From Malikia granosa (GTDB lineage: Bacteria > Pseudomonadota > Gammaproteobacteria > Burkholderiales > Burkholderiaceae_C): DNA of 64,000 bases. Position 1 is the first letter of the stretch, and each line of letters starts with the position of its first letter. This document shows, piece after piece, positions 35,840 through 46,180 of this stretch. The notes under the pieces are model-generated. The model was given only the letters and a program-made list of their open reading frames with translations, searched no databases and was not told the origin of the DNA. A program made the translations under genes and the position numbers. The stretch spans positions 1 through 64,000 of the forward strand of contig NZ_PVLQ01000008.1 of NCBI RefSeq assembly GCF_002980595.1, given 5' to 3'.

Positions 35840-37112
35840 GCACTTCGCCTTCGCCCAGCACGACGTACTTGAGCGAGGTCAGGCCCTCGACGCCGACCGG
35901 TCCGCGCGCGTGGAACTTGTCGGTGCTGATGCCGATCTCGGCGCCCAAGCCGTACTCGAAGCCGTCGGCGAAGCGGGTGCTGGCGTTGACCATCACGCTG
36001 CTCGAGTCGACCTCGCGCAGGAACTGCTGCGCATGGCGGTGGTCGGTGGTCAGGATGGCCTCGGTGTGGCCGCTCGAATACCTGTTGATGTGCGCGATCG
36101 CCTCGTCCACGCCGGCCACGACCTTGACGCTGATGATGGGGGCCAGGTATTCCTCGGACCAGTCCTGCTCGGTCGCGTCCTTGAGCTGGGCACCCGAGAC
36201 CTGGCTCAGGATCGCCTTCGAGACCGGGCAGCAGCGCATTTCCACGCCTTTCTGGGCGTAAATGGCGCCAATCTTCGGCAAAAATTCGGCCGCGACGCCG
36301 CGCGCGACCAGCAGGCTTTCGGTCGCGTTGCAGGGGCTGTACTTCTGCGTCTTGGCGTTGTCGGCCACCTTGACCGCCATTGCGATATCGCAGGGGTCGT
36401 CGACATAGGTGTGGCAGTTGCCGTCCAGATGCTTGATCACCGGCACCTTGGCGTCGCGGCTGATGCGCTCGATCAGGCCCTTGCCGCCGCGCGGGATGAT
36501 GACATCGACATACTGCGGCATGGTGATCAGCTGGCCCACCGCCTCGCGGTCGGTGGTGGGCACCAGCTGCACCGCGTCGGCCGGCAGGCCGGACTGTTCG
36601 AGCGCCTGTTGCACCAGCTTGGCCAGCGCCTTGTTCGACTCGATCGCCTCCGAACCGCCGCGCAGGATGCAGGCGTTGCCGCTCTTGATCGACAGGCTGG
36701 CGGCCTCGATCGTGACATTGGGCCGGCTCTCGAAGATCATGCCGAAGACGCCGATCGGTACCCGCATCTGGCCGACCCGGATGCCGCTGGGCTGCTGCTT
36801 CATGCCGAGGATCTCGCCGATGATGTCGGGCATGGCGGCGAGCTGCTCGCAGCCCTCGGCACAGGTCTCGATCACCTTCGGTGTCAGCTTGAGGCGGTCG
36901 ACCATCGGCTCGGACAGGCCGGCGGCGCGTGCGCGCTCGAGGTCCTTGGCATTCTCGACCTGCAGCGGCTCGATGTTGGCGCGCAGCAGGGCGGCCAGCG
37001 CGCGCAGCGCGGCGACCTTGCGCGCGCTGCTGGCGCGCGCCATCAGGGCGGAGGCGACCTTGGCCTGCTGGCCCAGGCGGTTCATCAGTTCGGCGGTGGT
37101 TTCGGCGTTCAT
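35832..37112 (-). CDS. proA: Glutamate-5-semialdehyde dehydrogenase (gamma-glutamyl phosphate reductase)
   Basis: ProA, 426 residues, second step of proline synthesis. Catalytic C261 sits in [33 protein letters not shown] and [22 protein letters not shown] are further family marks. Length agrees with E. coli ProA (417). Neither proB nor proC is in the window. Glutamate released by the 5-oxoprolinase could feed it, but there is no sequence link. Confidence 0.97.
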
Positions 37113-37174
37113 GCCGGGGATTTTCGCACCGCGCGTGTCGATCCGTGCCGAGCCGCGCGGATCGGGCGGACTTA

Positions 37175-37651
37175 TCAGCGCGGGCGCTTGCCCGGCGCGC
37201 GCGACAGGTCGTTGTTTTCCGTCACGAGCTGCAGCAGCAGCGCCATGAACTGCTGCCGCTGTTCGGGGTTCAGCGGCTCCAGGATGCGTTCCTGCGTGCG
37301 CTCCATGCCCGGCAGGGTCTGGGCCAGCAGCAGCTCGCCGGCCGGCGTCAGCGCGAGCAGGCGCACGCGCCGGTCCTCGGGCGAGACGCGGCGCCGCAGC
37401 AGGCCGCGCGCCTCGAGCCGGTCGACCACGCCCGCGGTGGTCGAGGTGTCGAGCGCGATGCGTCCGGCCAGGGTGCGCTGGTCGCAGCCGGGCTGGTCGC
37501 GCACCGTCTGCAGGATGGCGTATTGCACCGGGGTGACGTTGAGATCCTCGGTCTCCTGGTGAAAGATGCCGACCGAGATCTGGTGCAGGCGGCGTATCGC
37601 GTGGCCGGGTTGCGCGTCGAGTTGTACGGCTTGTGGTCGAGTGGACTCCAT
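37175..37651 (-). CDS. MarR-family regulator of the 3-hydroxybenzoate genes
   Basis: MarR regulator of 158 residues. [40 protein letters not shown] (recognition helix) and the wing [17 protein letters not shown] are standard. Divergent from the 3-hydroxybenzoate hydroxylase gene; a dyad overlaps the start of that transcript. The likely effector is the substrate 3-hydroxybenzoate or gentisate. I chose the ATG at 37651 because the 16 residues before it lie in the promoter region. Confidence 0.92.
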
Positions 37652-37692
37652 GCGTCGGCAGTCTAGCGCAAGCCAACCTAGGGAAAACCCTC

Positions 37693-37720
37693 TTGCCAAA
37701 TCTCAATTTGTACCTATACT
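37693..37720 (+). promoter_or_regulatory. Sigma-70 promoter of the gentisate pathway operon
   Basis: TTGCCA (37693-37698), 16-base spacer, TATACT (37715-37720), about 70 bases upstream of the hydroxylase start. Confidence 0.75.
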
Positions 37721-37740
37721 AATCATCTGTGTACTGATTA
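37720..37740. promoter_or_regulatory. Putative MarR operator TAATCA-N9-TGATTA
   Basis: A perfect 6-bp dyad starting at the last base of the -10 box and covering the expected transcription start, a classic repressor position. It includes TGTGTACTGA (37728-37737), which recurs at the aromatic acid transporter promoter. Confidence 0.7.
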
Positions 37741-37796
37741 TTCCGGAGCGGCAACCGCCGGCCGGTCCAAACCCTGTTTTTTCCTGGAGCATAGAT

Positions 37797-39005
37797 ATGA
37801 GCGAAATCAAATCCCAGTTGCCCGTCCTGGTGTCCGGCGGTGGCATTGGCGGCCTGGCGGCAGCGCTGGCGCTGGTGCGCCAGGGCTTCCAGGTCCAGGT
37901 GTTCGAGCAGGCGCCCGAGATCGGTGAGATCGGCGCTGGCATCCAGCTCGGGCCCAATGCCTTCCACGCCTTCGACGCGCTCGGCGTCGGTGAAAAGGCC
38001 CGTGGCCGCGCCGTCTACACCGACTACATGGTGATGCACGATGCGCTCGACGAGTCCCTGGTCGGCAAGATCGAGACCGGCGAAGCCTTCCGCAAGCGCT
38101 TCGGCAACCCCTACGCCGTGATCCATCGCGTCGACGTGCACAAGTCGCTGCTCGAAGGCGCCGTCGAGACCGGTCGCGTCGAATTCTTCACCAACACCCG
38201 CATCGAGAAGATCGAGCAGGACGAGGCCAGCGGCACCGTCACCGCGATCGACCAGAACGGCAAGCGCTGGACTGGCCAGGCCCTGATCGGCGCCGATGGC
38301 GGCAAGTCGGTGGTGCGCGCCCAGTATGTCAACGACCCGCCGCGCGTCACCGGCCATGTGGTCTATCGCGCCGTGGTCGACAAGGCCGACTTCCCGGATG
38401 ACCTGAAGTGGAACGCCGCCAGCCTGTGGGCCGGCCCCAAGTGCCACCTGGTGCACTACCCGCTGCGTGGTGGCGAGCAGTACAACGTGGTCGTGACCTT
38501 CCACAGCCGCGAGCAGGAGCAGTGGGGCGTGACCGACGGCTCCAAGGAAGAGGTCGAGAGCTATTTCCAGGGCATCTGCCCGAAGGCCCGCCAGCTGATC
38601 GAGCTGCCCAAGACCTGGAAGCGCTGGGCCACCGCAGACCGCGAGCCGATCCCGAACTGGGTCTTCGGCCGCGCCACCATCCTGGGCGATGCCGCCCACC
38701 CGACCACCCAGTACATGGCGCAAGGCGCCTGCATGGCGATGGAAGATGCCGTGACCCTGGGCGAGGCGCTGCGCGTCTCGAACAATGACTGGGATGCCGC
38801 CCTGCAGCTGTACCAGAAGAACCGCATCGCCCGCACCGGCCGCATCGTGCTGTCGGGCCGCGAAATGGGCCGCCTGTACCACGCCGCTGGCGTCGAGCGC
38901 CTGATCCGCAACAGCCTGTGGAAGGGCCGCAGCCAGGAGCGTTTCTATGACGCGATCGAATGGCTGTACGGCTGGAACGTCAACAACTGCCTGCAACAGG
39001 GCTGA
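37797..39005 (+). CDS. mhbM: 3-hydroxybenzoate 6-hydroxylase (FAD monooxygenase)
   Basis: Flavoprotein of 402 residues, 3-hydroxybenzoate + NADH + O2 to gentisate. The FAD/ADP loop GGGIGG is at 14-19, the DG motif in LIGADGGKSVVR near 165, and the GD motif in ILGDAAHPTTQYMAQGACMA at about 295-314. The tail DAIEWLYGWNV is like MhbM/3HB6H enzymes rather than salicylate hydroxylase. First gene of the operon with gentisate dioxygenase and fumarylpyruvate hydrolase. CTGGAGC gives the ribosome site. A salicylate 5- or 1-hydroxylase role cannot be fully excluded. Confidence 0.88.
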   Translation: MSEIKSQLPVLVSGGGIGGLAAALALVRQGFQVQVFEQAPEIGEIGAGIQLGPNAFHAFDALGVGEKARGRAVYTDYMVMHDALDESLVGKIETGEAFRKRFGNPYAVIHRVDVHKSLLEGAVETGRVEFFTNTRIEKIEQDEASGTVTAIDQNGKRWTGQALIGADGGKSVVRAQYVNDPPRVTGHVVYRAVVDKADFPDDLKWNAASLWAGPKCHLVHYPLRGGEQYNVVVTFHSREQEQWGVTDGSKEEVESYFQGICPKARQLIELPKTWKRWATADREPIPNWVFGRATILGDAAHPTTQYMAQGACMAMEDAVTLGEALRVSNNDWDAALQLYQKNRIARTGRIVLSGREMGRLYHAAGVERLIRNSLWKGRSQERFYDAIEWLYGWNVNNCLQQG

Positions 39006-39038
39006 TACTCGTCACCTGTCACTTCAAAGGACAAGAAG

Positions 39039-40094
39039 ATGCAAGACACCGGCCGCTTTGACACCCTGGGCCGTCTGGAAGACCTGCCGCAGGACTACCG
39101 CGACGAGCTGACTGCCAACAACCTGGTCCCGCTGTGGCCCAGCCTGCGCGCGGTGCTGCCGCCGCATGTGCCGGCACGCAAGACCCAGCCGACCCACTGG
39201 CCCTATGCCAAGCTGCGCGACCTGCTGCTGAAAGCCGGCGAGCTGACCCCGATCGAGAAGGCCGAGCGCCGCGTGCTGGTGCTGGCCAACCCGGGCCATG
39301 GCCTGGAGAAGATGCAGGCCAGCGCCGCCATGTACCTGGGCATGCAGCTGCTGCTGCCGGGCGAGCTGGCGCCGGCGCACCGCCACACCCCGAACGCCAT
39401 CCGCATGGTGGTCGAGGGCGAGGGCGCCTGGACCCTGGTCAACGGCGAGAAATGCCCGATGAGCCGTGGCGACCTGATCCTGACCCCGACCGGCCTGTGG
39501 CACGAGCATGGCCATGACGGCACCGATCCGGTGATCTGGCTCGACGTGCTGGACCTGCCGCTGGTCTACTACATCGAGGCCTCCTACCACGAGGAAGTGC
39601 CGAGCCAGACCGTCGTGCCGGGCCAGGGCGTCAAGGCCTATGCCCGCGGCGGCGTGGTGCCGACCCCGGTGTTCGGTCGCTCCGACAAGGCCTACCCGAT
39701 GCTGCGCTACCCCTGGGCCGATGCCAAGGCCGCGCTGCTGTCGCTGGCCGAGGACCAGCCGGAGCTGGAAGCCGTGCAGGTGACCTATGTCAACCCCGAG
39801 ACCGGCAAGGACGCCGAGAACATCCTGGGCTTCTACGCGCTGATGCTGCGTCCGGGCCAGACCCTGCGCCTGCCGGCCCGCTCGCCGGCCCAGGTGCTGC
39901 ACCAGATCGAAGGCAGCGCCGATGTCCAGGTCGAAGGTTCCGCCTTTACCCTGGCCGAGGCCGACACCTGCGCCGTGCCGGGCTACACCGCCGCCACGCT
40001 GACCAACCGCTCGGCGACCGAGCCGGCCTTCATCTTCGTGGCCGACGAATCGCCGCTGCACCGCAAGCTCGGCGTGTACGAGAACCGCGGCTGA
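39039..40094 (+). CDS. gtdA: Gentisate 1,2-dioxygenase
   Basis: Bicupin Fe(II) dioxygenase of 351 residues that opens gentisate to maleylpyruvate. The N-terminal cupin carries [18 protein letters not shown] (iron histidines, about 113-115) and WHEHGHDG; the C-terminal cupin lacks the full metal set, as is normal. N-terminal [17 protein letters not shown] is typical. It starts 33 bases after the hydroxylase gene. Confidence 0.96.
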
Positions 40095-40179
40095 TCAGCC
40101 CTCACTGAAGGCCGGGGCCTCTTATATAGTGGCTCCGGTTTTCCGTCGTTTTGAAACCGATTTTTTAGGAAGCACTGCA

Positions 40180-40881
40180 ATGGCCCAGTACCTGTTCAAC
40201 CCGCCCGAAGTCCAGTCCCTGCCGATCCAGGGCAAGGAAGAGCGTTTCCCGATCAACCGCCTGTTCTTCGTCGGCCGCAACTACCATGCGCACGCCGTCG
40301 AGATGGGCCGCCCGGTCGACAAGTCGGTCGAGCGCGCCTTCTACTTCACCAAGTCGCGCGACACCCTGGTCGACAGCGGCGCCACCGTGGCCTACCCGCC
40401 CGAGACCCAGAACTACCACTTCGAGATGGAGCTGGTGATCGCGATCGGCAAGCCGGGCTTCCGCGTGCAGGAAGACAAGGCGCACGAGCTGATCTACGGC
40501 TACGCCACCGGCCTGGACATGACCCGCCGCGACCTGCAGCTGGTCGCGCGCGACAAGGGCCGTCCCTGGGATACCGGCAAGGACATCGAGCAGGGCTCGG
40601 TCTGCTCCGAGATCGTGCCGATGGAAGGCAAGGTCATCGAAAGCGGCGAGATCGCGCTCGAAGTCAACGGCGTGACCAAGCAGAAGTCGGACGTCAACAA
40701 GCTGATCTGGAACGTGCGCGAGATCATCGCCGACCTGTCGCTGTACTACCACCTGCAGCCGGGCGACCTGATCTATACCGGTACCCCCGAAGGCGTCGGC
40801 GCCGTGGTGCCGGGCGACAAGATCACCGGCCATGTCGAAGGCGTGGGCCAGATCGAGCTGACCATCGGTGCCGCAGAGTAA
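40180..40881 (+). CDS. nagK: Fumarylpyruvate hydrolase (FAH family)
   Basis: A 233-residue FAH-fold enzyme that splits fumarylpyruvate to fumarate and pyruvate. [15 protein letters not shown], the metal-ligand region [15 protein letters not shown] (Glu-x-Glu) and [17 protein letters not shown] are diagnostic. ATG at 40180 has AGGA 11 bases upstream. It follows gentisate dioxygenase and precedes maleylpyruvate isomerase, across a terminator. Confidence 0.94.
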
Positions 40882-40901
40882 GCGCCTGCCGTGATGTCAT
40901 T

Positions 40902-40936
40902 CCCCTGCGCAGGTCCGCCCGTGCAGGGGTTTTTTT
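40902..40936 (+). terminator. Intrinsic terminator between nagK and nagL
   Basis: CCCCTGC / GCAGGGG 7-bp stem, 14-base loop, followed by TTTTTTT. It separates the isomerase gene from the rest of the pathway; partial read-through or a private promoter is needed for nagL. Confidence 0.85.
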
Positions 40937-40991
40937 CGTGGTCGGCGTGCTAGGCTGTGCGCCCGTCCCCCAGTCTGAATCAGGATTTCTC

Positions 40992-41630
40992 ATGAAGCTC
41001 TACAACTTCTGGCGCAGCGGCACCTCGCACCGCACGCGCATCGCGCTCAACCTCAAGGGCCTGGACACCGAGTACGTGGCCGTGCACCTGGGCAAGGAAA
41101 AGCACCTGAGCGACGAGTTCAAGGCCGTCAACCCGCAGCAGCTGGTGCCCGCGCTCGACACCGGCAGCGACGTGCTGATCCAGTCGCCCGCCATCATCGA
41201 ATGGCTGGAAGAGCAGTACCCGACCCCGGCGCTGCTGCCGGCCGATGCCGCCGGTCGGCAGAAGGTGCGTGCGCTGGCCGCCATCGTCGGTTGCGACATC
41301 CATCCGATCAACAACCGCCGCATCCTCGAGTACCTGCGCAAGACCTTCGGCGCCGACGATGACGCGATCAACGCCTGGTGCGGCACCTGGATCTCGGCCG
41401 GCTTCGACGCCTACGAGGCGCTGCTGGCCGCCGACACCCAGCGTGGCCGTTTCAGCTATGGCGACGCGCCGACCATCGCCGACTGCTACCTGATTCCGCA
41501 GGTCGAGAGCGCGCGCCGCTTCAAGGTCGACCTGAGCCGCTGGCCGCTGATCAGCGCGATCGATGCCGCCTGTGGCGAGCTCGAGGCGTTCAAGCAGGCC
41601 GCGCCTTCGGCCCAGCCCGACGCGGCCTGA
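40992..41630 (+). CDS. nagL: Glutathione-dependent maleylpyruvate isomerase (zeta GST)
   Basis: A 212-residue zeta-class GST, maleylpyruvate to fumarylpyruvate using glutathione. MKLYNFWRSGTSHRTRIALN holds the glutathione site; as in NagL of Ralstonia U2 the motif reads RSGTSHR rather than the SSCSWR of maleylacetoacetate isomerases. NPQQLVPALDTG and the C-terminal YGDAPTIADCYLIPQVESARR fit. It completes the path from 3-hydroxybenzoate to fumarate and pyruvate but is transcribed past a terminator. Confidence 0.93.
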   Translation: MKLYNFWRSGTSHRTRIALNLKGLDTEYVAVHLGKEKHLSDEFKAVNPQQLVPALDTGSDVLIQSPAIIEWLEEQYPTPALLPADAAGRQKVRALAAIVGCDIHPINNRRILEYLRKTFGADDDAINAWCGTWISAGFDAYEALLAADTQRGRFSYGDAPTIADCYLIPQVESARRFKVDLSRWPLISAIDAACGELEAFKQAAPSAQPDAA

Positions 41631-41657
41631 GCGCCATGCTCTGCGTCGGGCTGGCGG

Positions 41658-43094
41658 TCAGTACGCGCCTTCCCGACGCAGCACGGTCCTGACCGTCTTG
41701 GCCAGGATCGCGATATCGGTCCAGAGCGACCAGTTCTTGATGTACCAGTCGTCGTAGATCACGCGCTCGGAGAAGGTGGTCTTGCTGCGCCCGCTGACCT
41801 GCCACAGGCCGGTCAGTCCGGGGCGTACCTGGCCGTAGAGCTGCAGCGCCTCGCCATATTCGCTGACCTCGCGCGGCAGCAGCGGGCGCGGTCCGACCAG
41901 GCTCATCTCGCCGCGCAGCACGTTGAGCAGCTGCGGCAGCTCGTCGATGCTGCTGCCGCGGATGAAGCGGCCGACCTGCAGCACGCGCGGATCGTCCTCG
42001 AGCTTGAAGTTGCTCGCGACATAACGTTGCCATTCGGGGCTGTTCTCGGCTTCCCAGCGGCGCAGCAGGCCTTCGGCGTCATTGACCATGCTGCGGAACT
42101 TGTAGAAGCGGAACGGCTTGCCGCCGGGCCCCACGCGCTCCTGGATGAACAGGACCGGCCCGCCATCCTCGCGCCAGATGCGCCAGGCCACCCAGGCCAG
42201 CAGCGGCGAGAGCCATGCCAGCAGCAGGCTTGCGCTCACGAGGTCGAAAGCCCGCTTGACCAGCCGCAGGTGCGGGCGCAGCAGCTTGTTGGGCAGCGTG
42301 AGGCTGAACAGTTCCTGGCTGAAGAAGAACTGCATCTCGGCGCCATAGAGCGGTATGCCACGCATCGCGGGGATCACCCTCACGTCGTACACGCGGTGCA
42401 GCAACAGCTGCCTGATGAGCCGGTCGCGCGGGTCCTGCTGGCTGGCCTCGAGCGCGATCACGCACCTGAAGCGACGGAAAACCTCCCAGTCGTCCGGCAG
42501 GCCCTGCCAGACCAGGCAGGGCACGGGGCCCTGGCCGGGTTCGGCCGGGGGCCCGAGATCGGCCGGCTGCAGCAAGGCCTGCACCCTCATGCCCAGCCAG
42601 CTGTCGCCGTGCAGCGCCTTGAGCGCGAGCGCCGCGGTACGGCCCGACCCGAACACGAGCACGGGCTGGTACCAGAGGCCGAGCTGCTTGAGGGCCAGCC
42701 TGGCCAGTGCGCGGCCCGGCACGATGCTGCAGACCAGCAGCGGATAGAGCAGCAACGCGCTGCGGATCTGCTCCCAGTTCGGGATCTGGTTGAGCAGCCG
42801 GCTCGACAGCATGGTGAACACCATGGCGGCCAGCACGGTCTGGCGCAGTTCCTCCCAGAAGGTCTGGCGCCGGACATAGGCCTTGCGGTAGAAGCCGAAC
42901 CAGGCCAGCCAGGCCAGGCAGATCACCAGGTGATGGCGGTCCTGGCCGGTCAGCGTCCACAGGCCGTTGAGCCACAGCACGCCGGACTCGACCCCCAGCA
43001 GCATCAGCAGCTGCGCGGTCGAGCGCCGGAGGTTGCTGTGCCGGGCGGGAGGTAGCTGCTGGCACAGCAGCGAGGGCGGGGCAGCGTGGTCCAT
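41658..43094 (-). CDS. Undecaprenyl-phosphate hexose-1-phosphate transferase (WbaP-like)
   Basis: Polyisoprenyl-phosphate sugar transferase of 478 residues, starting a capsule, O-antigen or exopolysaccharide unit on the lipid carrier. Four to five N-terminal helices, a Rossmann-like middle ([14 protein letters not shown]), then the catalytic C-terminal domain from about residue 278 ([20 protein letters not shown]) with [21 protein letters not shown] and [15 protein letters not shown]. Size and layout match WbaP (476). No other polysaccharide genes are near. I chose the ATG at 43094; a GTG at 43133 is possible. It lies 118 bases downstream of the aromatic acid transporter on the same strand. 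Confidence 0.9.
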
Positions 43095-43212
43095 GCTTAT
43101 CTTGGGGCAGACCGGAAACCGGCCAAGGGCCACAGTATGGACCGGAATGTTCCGCCGGGGGAGCTGGCCTGCGCTGCCGGCCAGCCAGCCGGGTATCAGC
43201 CCGCCCCGTGCT

Positions 43213-44529
43213 TCAGCGGTTGCCGGCGCTGCGCGACATCGGCACCAGCAGCGTCAGCGTGATGCCGAACACGCCGATGCAGGCCAGCACGTAGAAGATC
43301 GAGTCGAGCGCGATGCCGGCGCTGATCAGCAGGCTGCCCAGCATCGGGCCGCCGATGCCGCCCAGGCGGCCGAAGCCCGCGCACCAGGCCACGCCGGCGG
43401 CGCGCACATTGGTGCGGTAGTAATTGGCGACGAAGCCGTAGATCAGCGTCTGGGTGCCGCTGGTCCCCAGGCCGACGATGGCGACAATGCACAGCAGCGC
43501 GGCCAGCGGCAGGCCCAGGGTCAGCAGGATCAGCGCGACCGCGCCGATCGCGAAGGTCGCTGCCACCACCGGCTTGGGGCCGAAGCGGTCGGCAAAGCGC
43601 GAGGCCAGCAGGGCGCCGAACAGCGAGCCACCGTTGAGCACCAGCAGGAAGGACAGCGAGCCCTTGGCATTGAAGCCGGCGCGCAGCATCAGCTCGGGCA
43701 GCCAGGTGTTGAGCGAATAGACCAGCACCAGGCCGGTGGCGCTCATCAGGCCCAGGATCAGGGTCGGGAACAGGTAATGCGCCGTGAACAGGCCAGCGAA
43801 GCCGGTCTTGTCATGCCCGCTGGGCTCGTGCTGGGCGCTGCCAGGGGCGGCGAGTTCGGGAATCGGCACCCCGGTGCGCTCGGACATCGCGCGCGCCTCG
43901 TCCATGCGGCCGCGCGCGGCCAGCCAGGCGACCGACTCGGGCATCTTGAAGTAGGCCAGCGGCAGCAGCGTGACCAGCGGCAGCGCGCCGATCCAGAACA
44001 TGCCGCGCCAGCCGATATGTTCCATCAGCAGGATGGCCAGCAGCGCCGACAGCAGGCTGCCGAGCGGGATGCCGCCGTTGGTGATCGCGTTGATCATGTT
44101 CTTCTTGCCCTTGGGCGCGTATTCGGCCACCAGCGCGGCGGTCGTCGCGACCAGCGAGCCCACGCCCATGCCGGTGAAGAAGCGCAGCCAGCCGAAGGTG
44201 TCGGTGGCCATGGCCGACAGCGCCATGCCGAGCGAGAACCAGGCGTAGGAGGTCAGGATCACCTTGCGGCGGCCCAGGATGTCACCGACGGTGCCAGCCA
44301 GCAGCGCGCCGACCATCACGCCGACCAGCGCGTAGCTGCCGAGCGCGCCGGCGATGGCGGGGGTCACGGTGCCGATCTGCGACGGGTCGCGCAGGAAAGT
44401 CGAGACCACGGCGCCGTAGACGACGAGGTCATAGCCGTCGAACACCAGGCCCAGGGTCGCGAGAGTCACGACCCAGATGACGGTGCGCATGCGGCGGGCG
44501 TCCTGCCCAGGATCAGAAGGGTTTGCCAT
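43213..44529 (-). CDS. Aromatic acid:H+ symporter (AAHS family MFS)
   Basis: 438-residue MFS permease of the AAHS group (BenK/PcaK/MhbT). The first helix contains LVFDGYDLVVYGAVV, the family DGxD signature; the loop GTVGDILGRRKVILTSYAW is the MFS motif. It probably imports 3-hydroxybenzoate or gentisate: its promoter shares sequence and spacing with that of the hydroxylase gene seven kilobases away, and the pathway genes lie nearby. Confidence 0.9.
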   Translation of the reverse strand: MANPSDPGQDARRMRTVIWVVTLATLGLVFDGYDLVVYGAVVSTFLRDPSQIGTVTPAIAGALGSYALVGVMVGALLAGTVGDILGRRKVILTSYAWFSLGMALSAMATDTFGWLRFFTGMGVGSLVATTAALVAEYAPKGKKNMINAITNGGIPLGSLLSALLAILLMEHIGWRGMFWIGALPLVTLLPLAYFKMPESVAWLAARGRMDEARAMSERTGVPIPELAAPGSAQHEPSGHDKTGFAGLFTAHYLFPTLILGLMSATGLVLVYSLNTWLPELMLRAGFNAKGSLSFLLVLNGGSLFGALLASRFADRFGPKPVVAATFAIGAVALILLTLGLPLAALLCIVAIVGLGTSGTQTLIYGFVANYYRTNVRAAGVAWCAGFGRLGGIGGPMLGSLLISAGIALDSIFYVLACIGVFGITLTLLVPMSRSAGNR

Positions 44530-44608
44530 GGTTTGCTCCAGAAGGGGGGGGCTGTGGACGGTGCCAGCGCGAGCCGAAGGAGGCGCCGGACAGTTTCAGG
44601 ATAGATAT

Positions 44609-44631
44609 TCAGTACACATTAAATAAGCATA
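44609..44631 (-). promoter_or_regulatory. Promoter/operator of the aromatic acid transporter
   Basis: On the minus strand TATGCT (44631-44626) is followed 7 bases later by TGTGTACTGA (44618-44609). The hydroxylase promoter has TATACT, 7 bases, and the same 10-mer. A convincing -35 box is not seen (TTTAAA at 18 bases is the best). Ends 80 bases before the gene. Confidence 0.6.
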
Positions 44632-44658
44632 CTTATCATAAGTTTACTTTTTAAACTT
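44623..44658. repeat. AT-rich dyads upstream of the transporter
   Basis: ATAAG-CATA-CTTAT (44623-44636) and AAGTTTA-CTTTT-TAAACTT (44640-44658), both perfect. Together with the 10-mer they make this the most AT-rich patch near the transporter; they may be further operator sites. Confidence 0.45.
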
Positions 44659-44737
44659 GCGCAAAGCTTACAGTAACCTTACAAAATGAGTCTCTCGGAC
44701 CTGCGGGTGGGGACGGACAGGGCGCCGTGCGGCCTTG

Positions 44738-46180
44738 TCAGGGCTGGCGCTGGGCCGCCCAGCGCACCAGGGCCTCGAGCGCCGGTTTGGCGGCGCGGGC
44801 CTCCGGGTGGTTGACGATCGCGACCAGCACCAGGCGCTGGCCGTTGGCGCCATGGACATAGCCGGCCAGCGCCTGCACGTCGCGCAGGCTGCCGGTCTTG
44901 AGGTGGGCCTGGCCGGCGTCGAGCGCGCTGCGCCGCAGCGTGCCGTCCACGCCGCTGACCGGCAGCGAGGCTGCCAGGTCGGGCATCAGGCCCGAGTTCC
45001 AGGCCTGCTGCAGCAGGCGCGCCAGCGCGCTGGCGCTCAGGCGTACCTCGCGGCCGAGTCCGCTGCCGTTGCCGACCTCGGGCAGCCGGGTGCCCGGCCC
45101 GAGCTTGTCCCGCCACCAGTCTTCCAGCGCCTGCCGGGCTTCGGCCAGCCCGGTCGGCGTGCCGTCATGCCCGGCCTGGCCCAGGGTCAGGAAGATCTGC
45201 TGCGCCATCACGTTGTTGCTGTACTTGTTGGTCTCGCGCACGACTTCGGCCAGCGGCGGCGACTCGAAGCTCAGCCGCAGGCTGGCCTGCGGCGGCACCC
45301 GGCCCTCGCGCACCTGGCCATCGAGCTGGCCGCCCAGCGACTGCCACATGCCCGCCACCGCGCGCGCGGCCAGGCGGGCCGGTTCGGGATGGGCGATCGG
45401 CCATTCGCGCGCGCCGCAGGCCGCCCGGTAGCGGCCGGCGAAGCGCGGCCGCAGCGGGTCCGAGAAGTCGGCGCGCAGTGCGCCCCGCCAGTCGCCGCAG
45501 GCCTCATCGGCGCGGCTGGCCTCGAGCGGCACGCTGGCGGGCGGTTCGACGCCGGCCAGCGGCGGCTCCAGCGTCACGCGCGCGACGCCGGCCTCGGTAT
45601 CGGGCATGAAGCCGAACACCTGGCTGCGGTAGTTGATCAGCAGCGCGTCGGGCGCGGCGTTGTAGGGCTTGAGCGGTTCGCTGTCGAAGGCGCCCGGGTC
45701 GGTCTCGGGCAGGGCGAAGGCGCTGCGGTCGAGCCAGATGTCGCCCGTGATGCGCCGGATGCCCAGGCCCTGGACCCGGCGCAGCAGCAGCCAGAGCTTT
45801 TCGCTCACCAGCTTGGGGTCGCCGCCGCCCTGCAGGTAGAGGTCGCCTTGCAATACACCGTCGCGTACCGGCCCGTCGCTGTAGACCCGGGTCTGCCAGC
45901 GGAAGTCGGGTCCGAGCCGGTCCAGCGCCGCATAGGTCGTGACCAGCTTGAGGGTGGAGGCCGGGTTGACCGGTACTTCGGCGCGCCAGGCCAGCAGCGG
46001 CGCGCGCCCGGGCCGTGTCTCGAGCAGGACGGCGGACAGCGCGTCGGCCGGCAGCTTGGCGCGCGCCAGCAGGCTCGCGACCTCGGGTGGCAGCGCCGGC
46101 TCCGCCCTGGCTGCCGCGGTCAAGGTCATGGCCAGCAGCGCGGCCCCCGCGAGTTTGATGATTCCGGATCGCTCGAGCAT
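44738..46180 (-). CDS. dacB: D-alanyl-D-alanine carboxypeptidase/endopeptidase PBP4
   Basis: 480-residue penicillin-binding protein of class C. A signal peptide ends near residue 26 (TAAARA). Active-site motifs: S75-T-L-K78 in NPASTLKLV, the SxN motif in KYSNNVMAQQ, and KTG in HLKTGSLRDV. It trims or cleaves peptidoglycan cross-links in the periplasm. ATG at 46180 begins a proper signal peptide; a TTG seven codons upstream is less likely. Divergent from tsaB with 34 bases between. Confidence 0.95.
   Translation of the reverse strand: MLERSGIIKLAGAALLAMTLTAAARAEPALPPEVASLLARAKLPADALSAVLLETRPGRAPLLAWRAEVPVNPASTLKLVTTYAALDRLGPDFRWQTRVYSDGPVRDGVLQGDLYLQGGGDPKLVSEKLWLLLRRVQGLGIRRITGDIWLDRSAFALPETDPGAFDSEPLKPYNAAPDALLINYRSQVFGFMPDTEAGVARVTLEPPLAGVEPPASVPLEASRADEACGDWRGALRADFSDPLRPRFAGRYRAACGAREWPIAHPEPARLAARAVAGMWQSLGGQLDGQVREGRVPPQASLRLSFESPPLAEVVRETNKYSNNVMAQQIFLTLGQAGHDGTPTGLAEARQALEDWWRDKLGPGTRLPEVGNGSGLGREVRLSASALARLLQQAWNSGLMPDLAASLPVSGVDGTLRRSALDAGQAHLKTGSLRDVQALAGYVHGANGQRLVLVAIVNHPEARAAKPALEALVRWAAQRQP

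Follow-up and report, generated by a model that had tools for sequence, protein, structure and literature searches.

Introduction

Control of 3-hydroxybenzoate (3HB) or gentisate genes by MarR-family regulators is established in kind, as the accessible parts of the published accounts describe for MobR, GenR and Burkholderia xenovorans MhbR. MobR of Comamonas testosteroni KH122-3s represses mobA. GenR, also of Comamonas testosteroni, is described in the excerpted text as exerting MarR-type control of the gentisate pathway within the same bacterial family (PMC4424350). In B. xenovorans LB400, MhbR is encoded divergently from mhbT, the AAHS transporter gene of a gentisate cluster, and the consulted part of that report proposes it as the transporter's repressor and puts its identity to the MarR proteins of the mhb clusters in Polaromonas and C. 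testosteroni at only 30% (PMC3572157). Here we describe, in a 64,000-nucleotide stretch of the Malikia granosa genome (contig NZ_PVLQ01000008.1, positions 1 to 64,000; hereafter the window), an operator array at the promoters of a 3HB-gentisate operon and of an unlinked transporter gene, together with the divergent MarR-family protein that probably acts on it.

The window regulator resembles MobR in its family, in its position (divergent from, or near, a 3HB hydroxylase gene), in that MobA homologues similar to PDB 2dkh adjoin MarRs of the window clade with the same operator, and in the 3HB ligand that the excerpted reports give for MobR. It differs in its predicted targets, which are a 3HB 6-hydroxylase, the gentisate route and a separate transporter promoter. 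GenR differs in its listed ligand, benzoyl-CoA (as given in the excerpt of PMC4424350), and both MobR and GenR were compared by description only. The site predicted for MhbR, ATTGTTTCACAAACTAAT, is unlike the window array as far as the consulted part of PMC3572157 goes. For MarR proteins of 3HB or gentisate genes, our literature search turned up no published operator resembling this array, the primary reports on the MobR and GenR operators being outside its reach. As far as the literature searched shows, what is new is the operator as defined here, with cores at a 15-bp pitch, how widely it occurs, and that it takes in an unlinked transporter.

We propose that a MobR/GenR-like, 3HB-responsive MarR repressor controls the 3HB-gentisate operon, the transporter and probably itself, a reading to which we assign, on comparative sequence evidence, a probability of about 0.85. 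A regulon joining the hydroxylase operon and the transporter had already been suggested in a first-pass annotation of this DNA; that part is strongly supported by the comparisons given here, and its description of the DNA element is not. The genes at the centre of the argument are the following.

37175..37651, minus strand: MarR-family regulator, 158 amino acids, proposed repressor (MobR/GenR-like); Pfam MarR PF01047, 57.8 bits, cut-off 24.6
37797..39005, plus strand: 3-hydroxybenzoate 6-monooxygenase; NCBIfam NF006021, 687.7 bits, equivalog cut-off 459
43213..44529, minus strand: AAHS-like MFS transporter, proposed to take up 3HB; MFS_1, 128.8 bits, cut-off 33.4; TIGR00895, 252.7 bits, under the subfamily cut-off of 418.55

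A repeated operator at two promoters

Among 80 hydroxylase loci fetched from named genomes, 33 have a divergent and adjacent marR gene. A 36-bp position weight matrix (PWM) was built on 29 marR-divergent hydroxylase promoters from outside the genus, with an expectation-maximisation seed composed by eye. As judged from these promoters, the conserved element is a series of YRTRCT cores, one every 15 bp, inside interlocked palindromes of the form ATCRTCAG-YRTR-CTGATGAT. Relative to the central core, a further YRYRC(T/A) core is found at 15 bp upstream in 27 of the 29 promoters and at 15 bp downstream in 13, other offsets averaging 0.3%, and self-identity at a lag of 15 is 0.535, the next highest value among lags 5-24 being 0.362. 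In an alignment of 27 sites taken from other genera, the four highest-ranking palindrome centres follow one another at intervals of 7.5 columns, with paired fractions of 0.674, 0.626, 0.581 and 0.453. In 300 column-permuted control alignments, the paired fraction reached a maximum of 0.593 with a mean of 0.462, so the first two centres are clearly above the controls, the third is just under their maximum and the fourth is at their mean. A palindromic operator at the controlled promoters, as expected of the MarR family, is therefore present (0.674 versus the control maximum of 0.593). In the window, the element and the associated promoter features are placed as follows.

37693..37698, plus strand: -35 box TTGCCA, 16 bp before TATACT; TTGCNN-N16-TATACT is also found in 4 of 4 sister loci
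37715..37720, plus strand: -10 box TATACT, which is also the first operator core
37722..37741: 20-bp operator palindrome ATCATCTGTGTACTGATTAT centred on the second core, TGTACT (37730-37735); PWM sub-site 31.7 bits
44602..44646, minus strand: transporter operator array with cores 15 bp apart, TAAACT (44641-44646), TATGCT (44626-44631) and TGTACT (44611-44616)

The repeat units read TATACTAATCATCTG and TGTACTGATTATTCC at the hydroxylase promoter, and TAAACTTATGATAAG, TATGCTTATTTAATG and TGTACTGAATATCTA at the transporter promoter. For the hydroxylase, the promoter TTGCCA-N16-TATACT is credible and is kept in all four sister loci. At the transporter, the best PWM site is centred on TATGCT and not on the 10-mer discussed below, and the best 20-bp palindrome of the array lies at 44620-44639. 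TATGCT was not adopted as a firm -10 box, and the -10 pairing of the two promoters is weaker than had been claimed: this core reads TGTACT in M. spinosa, and a sigma-70 consensus scan at the transporter gave no promoter-like site.

This arrangement accounts for the match from which the regulon was first suspected. The first-pass annotation had placed TATACT-N7-TGTGTACTGA at 37715-37737 on the plus strand and TATGCT-N7-TGTGTACTGA at 44631-44609 on the minus strand, and both positions are correct. The shared -10 box and spacing come from the repeat: the "-10 box" is itself one core and the pattern consists of two successive units of the 15-bp repeat, which explains the identical distance to the 10-mer. 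The 10-mer TGTGTACTGA also fails as a conserved unit, being found in 5 of 79 3HB-hydroxylase upstream regions, four of them from this genus; the literal TATRCT-N7-10-mer pattern is genus-specific, with 4 of 79 regions, all from this genus.

The dyad TAATCA-N9-TGATTA, previously noted at the hydroxylase promoter, is present in the window but does not represent the conserved unit: in the four sister-species loci, TAATAA or TAATCG takes the place of the left arm, and the dyad lies in the wrong register, so it was rejected as the operator. At the 27 sites aligned above, moving the centre by 1.5 columns raises the number of paired cells from 122 of 270 (45%), at the dyad's centre, to 182 of 270 (67%). 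Counted over its own six pairs, the dyad is matched in 100 of 162 cells (62%), and the new palindrome, over its eight outer pairs, in 156 of 216 (72%). The operator definition given here thus corrects a reading suggested by the 10-mer and a chance dyad.

Occurrence in the genome, the genus and the family

In the window, the PWM ranks the transporter promoter first, with 44.8 bits (44611-44646), followed by the hydroxylase promoter with 35.7 bits (36-bp site at 37715-37750), and the next score is 7.6 bits. Five-fold cross-validation placed all 29 promoters at or above 29.5 bits, and of 2,000 random 300-bp segments 32 reached 20 bits, all of which, on inspection of their positions, overlap the hydroxylase upstream region. 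A second, sequence-only model, R1, rests on 27 of these 29 promoter sites; L081 and L108 were excluded because their best match was displaced by one repeat unit. With 150 of 156 first-look candidates scored in the window genome, R1 found two places only at E<=1, the hydroxylase promoter (24.2 bits, E 8.4e-5) and the transporter promoter (17.7 bits, E 0.01). The same two promoters are found in M. spinosa, and the hydroxylase site only in genomes G001, G002 and G004.

The hydroxylase copy of the 10-mer is present in all five genomes of the genus, and the transporter copy in the window genome, G001 and G002; G003 reads TGTGTACTTA at that position, and the only transporter found in G004 is a paralogue with 70% identity. 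In G001 and G002, the transporter promoters carry the 10-mer with cores on the 15-bp pitch and score 35.3 and 29.0 bits with the PWM. The locus of G001 (L046) is Malikia-like and groups with the genus, and its record, titled Chitinophaga pinensis, is probably a mislabelled metagenome bin. Three sister genomes (L130, L134, L135) have a 70% transporter paralogue without this type of operator upstream; other dyads, such as ATACC-TAATT-GGTAT, occur there.

Chance sharing, or the recent duplication of a promoter fragment, would leave the transporter outside joint control. The confinement of the literal 10-mer to the genus would suit such an origin, as would its count in the window: a scan allowing at most one mismatch gave two matches, both exact, where the expectation is 0.71, and since as many turn up in 18 of 100 shuffles, this count alone is not significant. 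From base composition, about 1.5 copies are predicted for the whole genome and about 0.00016 for two promoter stretches of 200 bp; the 3,832,968-base genome holds exactly two copies, both at these promoters; together with the PWM and R1 results, this led us to reject chance sharing. The flanks of the two sites differ, yet both fit the profile from other genera, and all four transporter promoters examined in the genus keep their cores on the 15-bp pitch despite divergence. Orthologous transporters elsewhere are, moreover, under the same operator or inside 3HB/gentisate clusters. In three genomes of one other genus, the order is marR, transporter and mobA, with an operator of 31-34 bits between marR and the transporter gene; in four further genomes the orthologue lies between the fumarylpyruvate hydrolase and maleylpyruvate isomerase genes, and at loci L060 and L064 it follows 3HB/gentisate genes. 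Among the non-genus genomes listed, the transporter is beside 3HB/gentisate-type genes in eight of eight, the eighth being a partial match upstream of an isomerase gene. Taken together, we regard chance or duplication as very improbable.

R1 was also run across 399 family genomes drawn from a larger group, with stricter filters than in the single-genome scan, and 69 have a site at E<=0.01; these E-values are rough owing to a short calibration, and about four chance sites are expected at that limit. Outside the genus there are 67 sites. A marR relative is no more than 600 bp away at 54 of them, and 63 adjoin marR and/or a pathway-gene homologue, some of the pathway neighbours being distant homologues (gentisate dioxygenases with 29-36% identity at L198, L207, L231 and L240, and a flavoprotein with 30% identity at L223). 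The remaining four (L224, L238, L241, L243) have no MarR or pathway link, about four chance sites being expected. The operator is thus conserved, restricted in the window genome to two promoters, and associated with a MarR clade and with 3HB genes.

Some of the more remote settings deserve separate mention. At L198, L207, L231 and L240, the operator is located between marR and relatives of the window's ring-cleavage dioxygenase, perhaps for other substrates. At L223, the site is beside the flavoprotein and a distant MarR (44%), and the same genome has L224 as a second, unlinked site. In the genomes of the Azospirillum loci L103 and L111, MarRs with 50-52% identity adjoin a gentisate dioxygenase gene (L160, L163), and operator-like upstream sites of 27.6 and 38.6 bits suggest that the code reaches into the Alphaproteobacteria.

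Proposed regulator, ligand and mechanism

The window protein also matches MarR_2 (45.6 bits, above the cut-off of 27), and its nearest solved structures are BpsR, PcaV and HosA. The operator stays beside this MarR clade as the target changes from 3HB 6-hydroxylase to MobA, the transporter or ring-cleavage genes. A MobA-like flavoprotein is the target adjoining marR at five of the 67 sites; one such protein matches PDB 2dkh (3-hydroxybenzoate hydroxylase; MobA is a 3HB 4-hydroxylase) at 1,085 bits, and another, of partial sequence, at 549 bits. In a tree of the window protein and 99 relatives, which leaves many forks open and has flagged long branches, MarRs encoded next to mobA or the transporter gene fall within the group encoded next to 3HB 6-hydroxylase.

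3HB is the one metabolite common to all operator settings (3HB 6-hydroxylase, MobA and the transporter), and MobR is reported, in the accessible parts of PMC6191541 and PMC4737184, to bind it. In the main MarR clade, Arg20 is found in 89 of 89 proteins and His17 in 73 of 89; they align with Arg26 and His23, the 6-hydroxynicotinate-binding residues named in the consulted description of BpsR (PDB 6pcp), a 6-hydroxynicotinate-responsive MarR of Bordetella that is the closest solved relative and serves another pathway and ligand. The same MarR might instead have gentisate or a coenzyme A (CoA) ester such as benzoyl-CoA as its natural ligand, in which case the regulon would answer a pathway product or benzoate. 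The pair Arg20/His17 would suit any benzoate-type acid, and GenR, a MarR-family protein, is listed in the excerpt of PMC4424350 as recognising benzoyl-CoA, which makes the ligand less certain than the regulon. Gentisate, however, is not common to the targets, since MobA, which forms protocatechuate, is served by this operator and MarR clade as well, and the reported binding of 3HB by MobR argues against both gentisate and a CoA ester. We therefore consider these ligands unlikely, though well worth keeping in view, and retain 3HB in the following scheme.

We propose a mechanism in which (i) without ligand, MarR dimers would occupy arrays of overlapping palindromic operators with cores 15 bp apart; (ii) these arrays would overlie the -10 box and the start region at the hydroxylase-gentisate promoter, as well as the unlinked transporter promoter, and block RNA polymerase, an exclusion suggested by this position of the operator; (iii) through the site in the marR-hydroxylase intergenic region, the MarR would probably also control its own gene; (iv) 3HB would bind the MarR and release it from DNA, as the description of MobR and the shared substrate of the operator-bearing hydroxylases suggest, so that uptake and breakdown are induced together. 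Binding by the window MarR, the sign of control, the ligand and the transport substrate are in this scheme what we infer. Repression may, speculatively, be graded by how many cores a promoter carries (hydroxylase, two; transporter, three).

Several points weigh against this reading. R1 missed the transporter sites of G001 and G002 at E<=1. No marR lies within 600 bp at 13 of the 67 sites outside the genus, and among hydroxylase loci lacking an adjacent marR, three of 19 operator-bearing genomes, many of them drafts, give no MarR match at E<=1e-12. The MobR gel shifts, according to the excerpt of PMC6191541, needed 10 mM 3HB, and two other ligand residues given for BpsR in its partial description, Tyr15 and His32, are not kept in the window clade. 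The gentisate dioxygenase-like and AAHS-like names are at family level, because their NCBIfam scores are under the cut-offs.

The sites and genomes lacking a MarR would suit a different arrangement, in which another, unlinked regulator of aromatic metabolism binds the operators and the MarR controls itself or something else only. The site, however, follows the MarR clade through changes of target, and its palindromic form suits a MarR dimer. Co-occurrence also argues for the MarR: a protein at least 55% identical is encoded elsewhere in 13 of 19 operator-bearing genomes versus 0 of 19 operator-free genomes (Fisher p 1e-5; the identity limit was chosen after the data had been seen, and relatedness is uncorrected). 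Three of the other operator-bearing genomes, many of which are drafts, have MarR relatives of 46-47% only. Of the 47 loci at which marR is not adjacent, this sample covers 38 (L051, L055, L061, L091, L096, L106, L110, L114 and L115 were left out), with L043 and L062 added as positive controls. An unlinked regulator is accordingly improbable, and we retain the divergent MarR as the proposed repressor.

If this is correct, the array offers a testable code by which operators for 3HB sensing can be recognised in Comamonadaceae-like bacteria, and the transporter, which has no assigned substrate, is predicted to take up 3HB. The sharing of one regulator-operator pair by two alternative 3HB routes would explain the evolutionary swapping of hydroxylases. 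More tentatively, and with somewhat more doubt than confidence, we envisage repressor dimers lined up along a DNA lattice that repeats every 15 bp and takes its phase from the -10 box; the number of cores would set how tightly a promoter is closed, and one code would be common to the gentisate and protocatechuate routes and to uptake across the family. YRTR- and ATNAT-centred palindromes would alternate every 7.5 bp, so that neighbouring dimers would sit on nearly opposite faces of the helix, and the routes could be exchanged without rewiring the regulator.

Other genes of the locus and a second dyad

The marR gene is adjacent to and divergent from the 3HB 6-monooxygenase gene, which opens an operon continued by gentisate dioxygenase-like, fumarylpyruvate hydrolase-like and maleylpyruvate isomerase-like genes; the first of these three labels comes from score and gene context. 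The remaining features are listed below.

37680..37691: dyad AGGGAAAACCCT (AGGG-N4-CCCT), just upstream of the -35 box, its centre 29.5 bp upstream of the -10 box
39039..40094, plus strand: gentisate 1,2-dioxygenase-like (cupin); TIGR02272, 249.9 bits, under the equivalog cut-off of 442.1; Cupin_2 over its cut-off
40180..40881, plus strand: fumarylpyruvate hydrolase-like (FAA hydrolase family); PF01557, 155.5 bits, cut-off 23.9; start codon picked by eye
40992..41630, plus strand: maleylpyruvate isomerase-like (maiA family); TIGR01262, 285 bits, cut-off 171
41658..43133, minus strand: WbaP-like sugar-phosphate transferase, downstream of the transporter on the same strand, not a proposed target; TIGR03022, 411.2 bits, cut-off 403

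An Rfam search of positions 37000-45000 gave no match. No terminator was found in the gap of about 80 bp between the transporter and WbaP-like genes (43133-43213), and read-through from the 3HB-controlled transporter promoter might reach the latter; in G002, no WbaP match adjoins the transporter. The AGGG-N4-CCCT dyad is present, with at least seven of its eight positions, in 34 of 51 operator-bearing upstream regions versus 8.5% of shuffles. It also occurs at loci without an adjacent marR, for example L113 and L120, and may be a candidate activator site.

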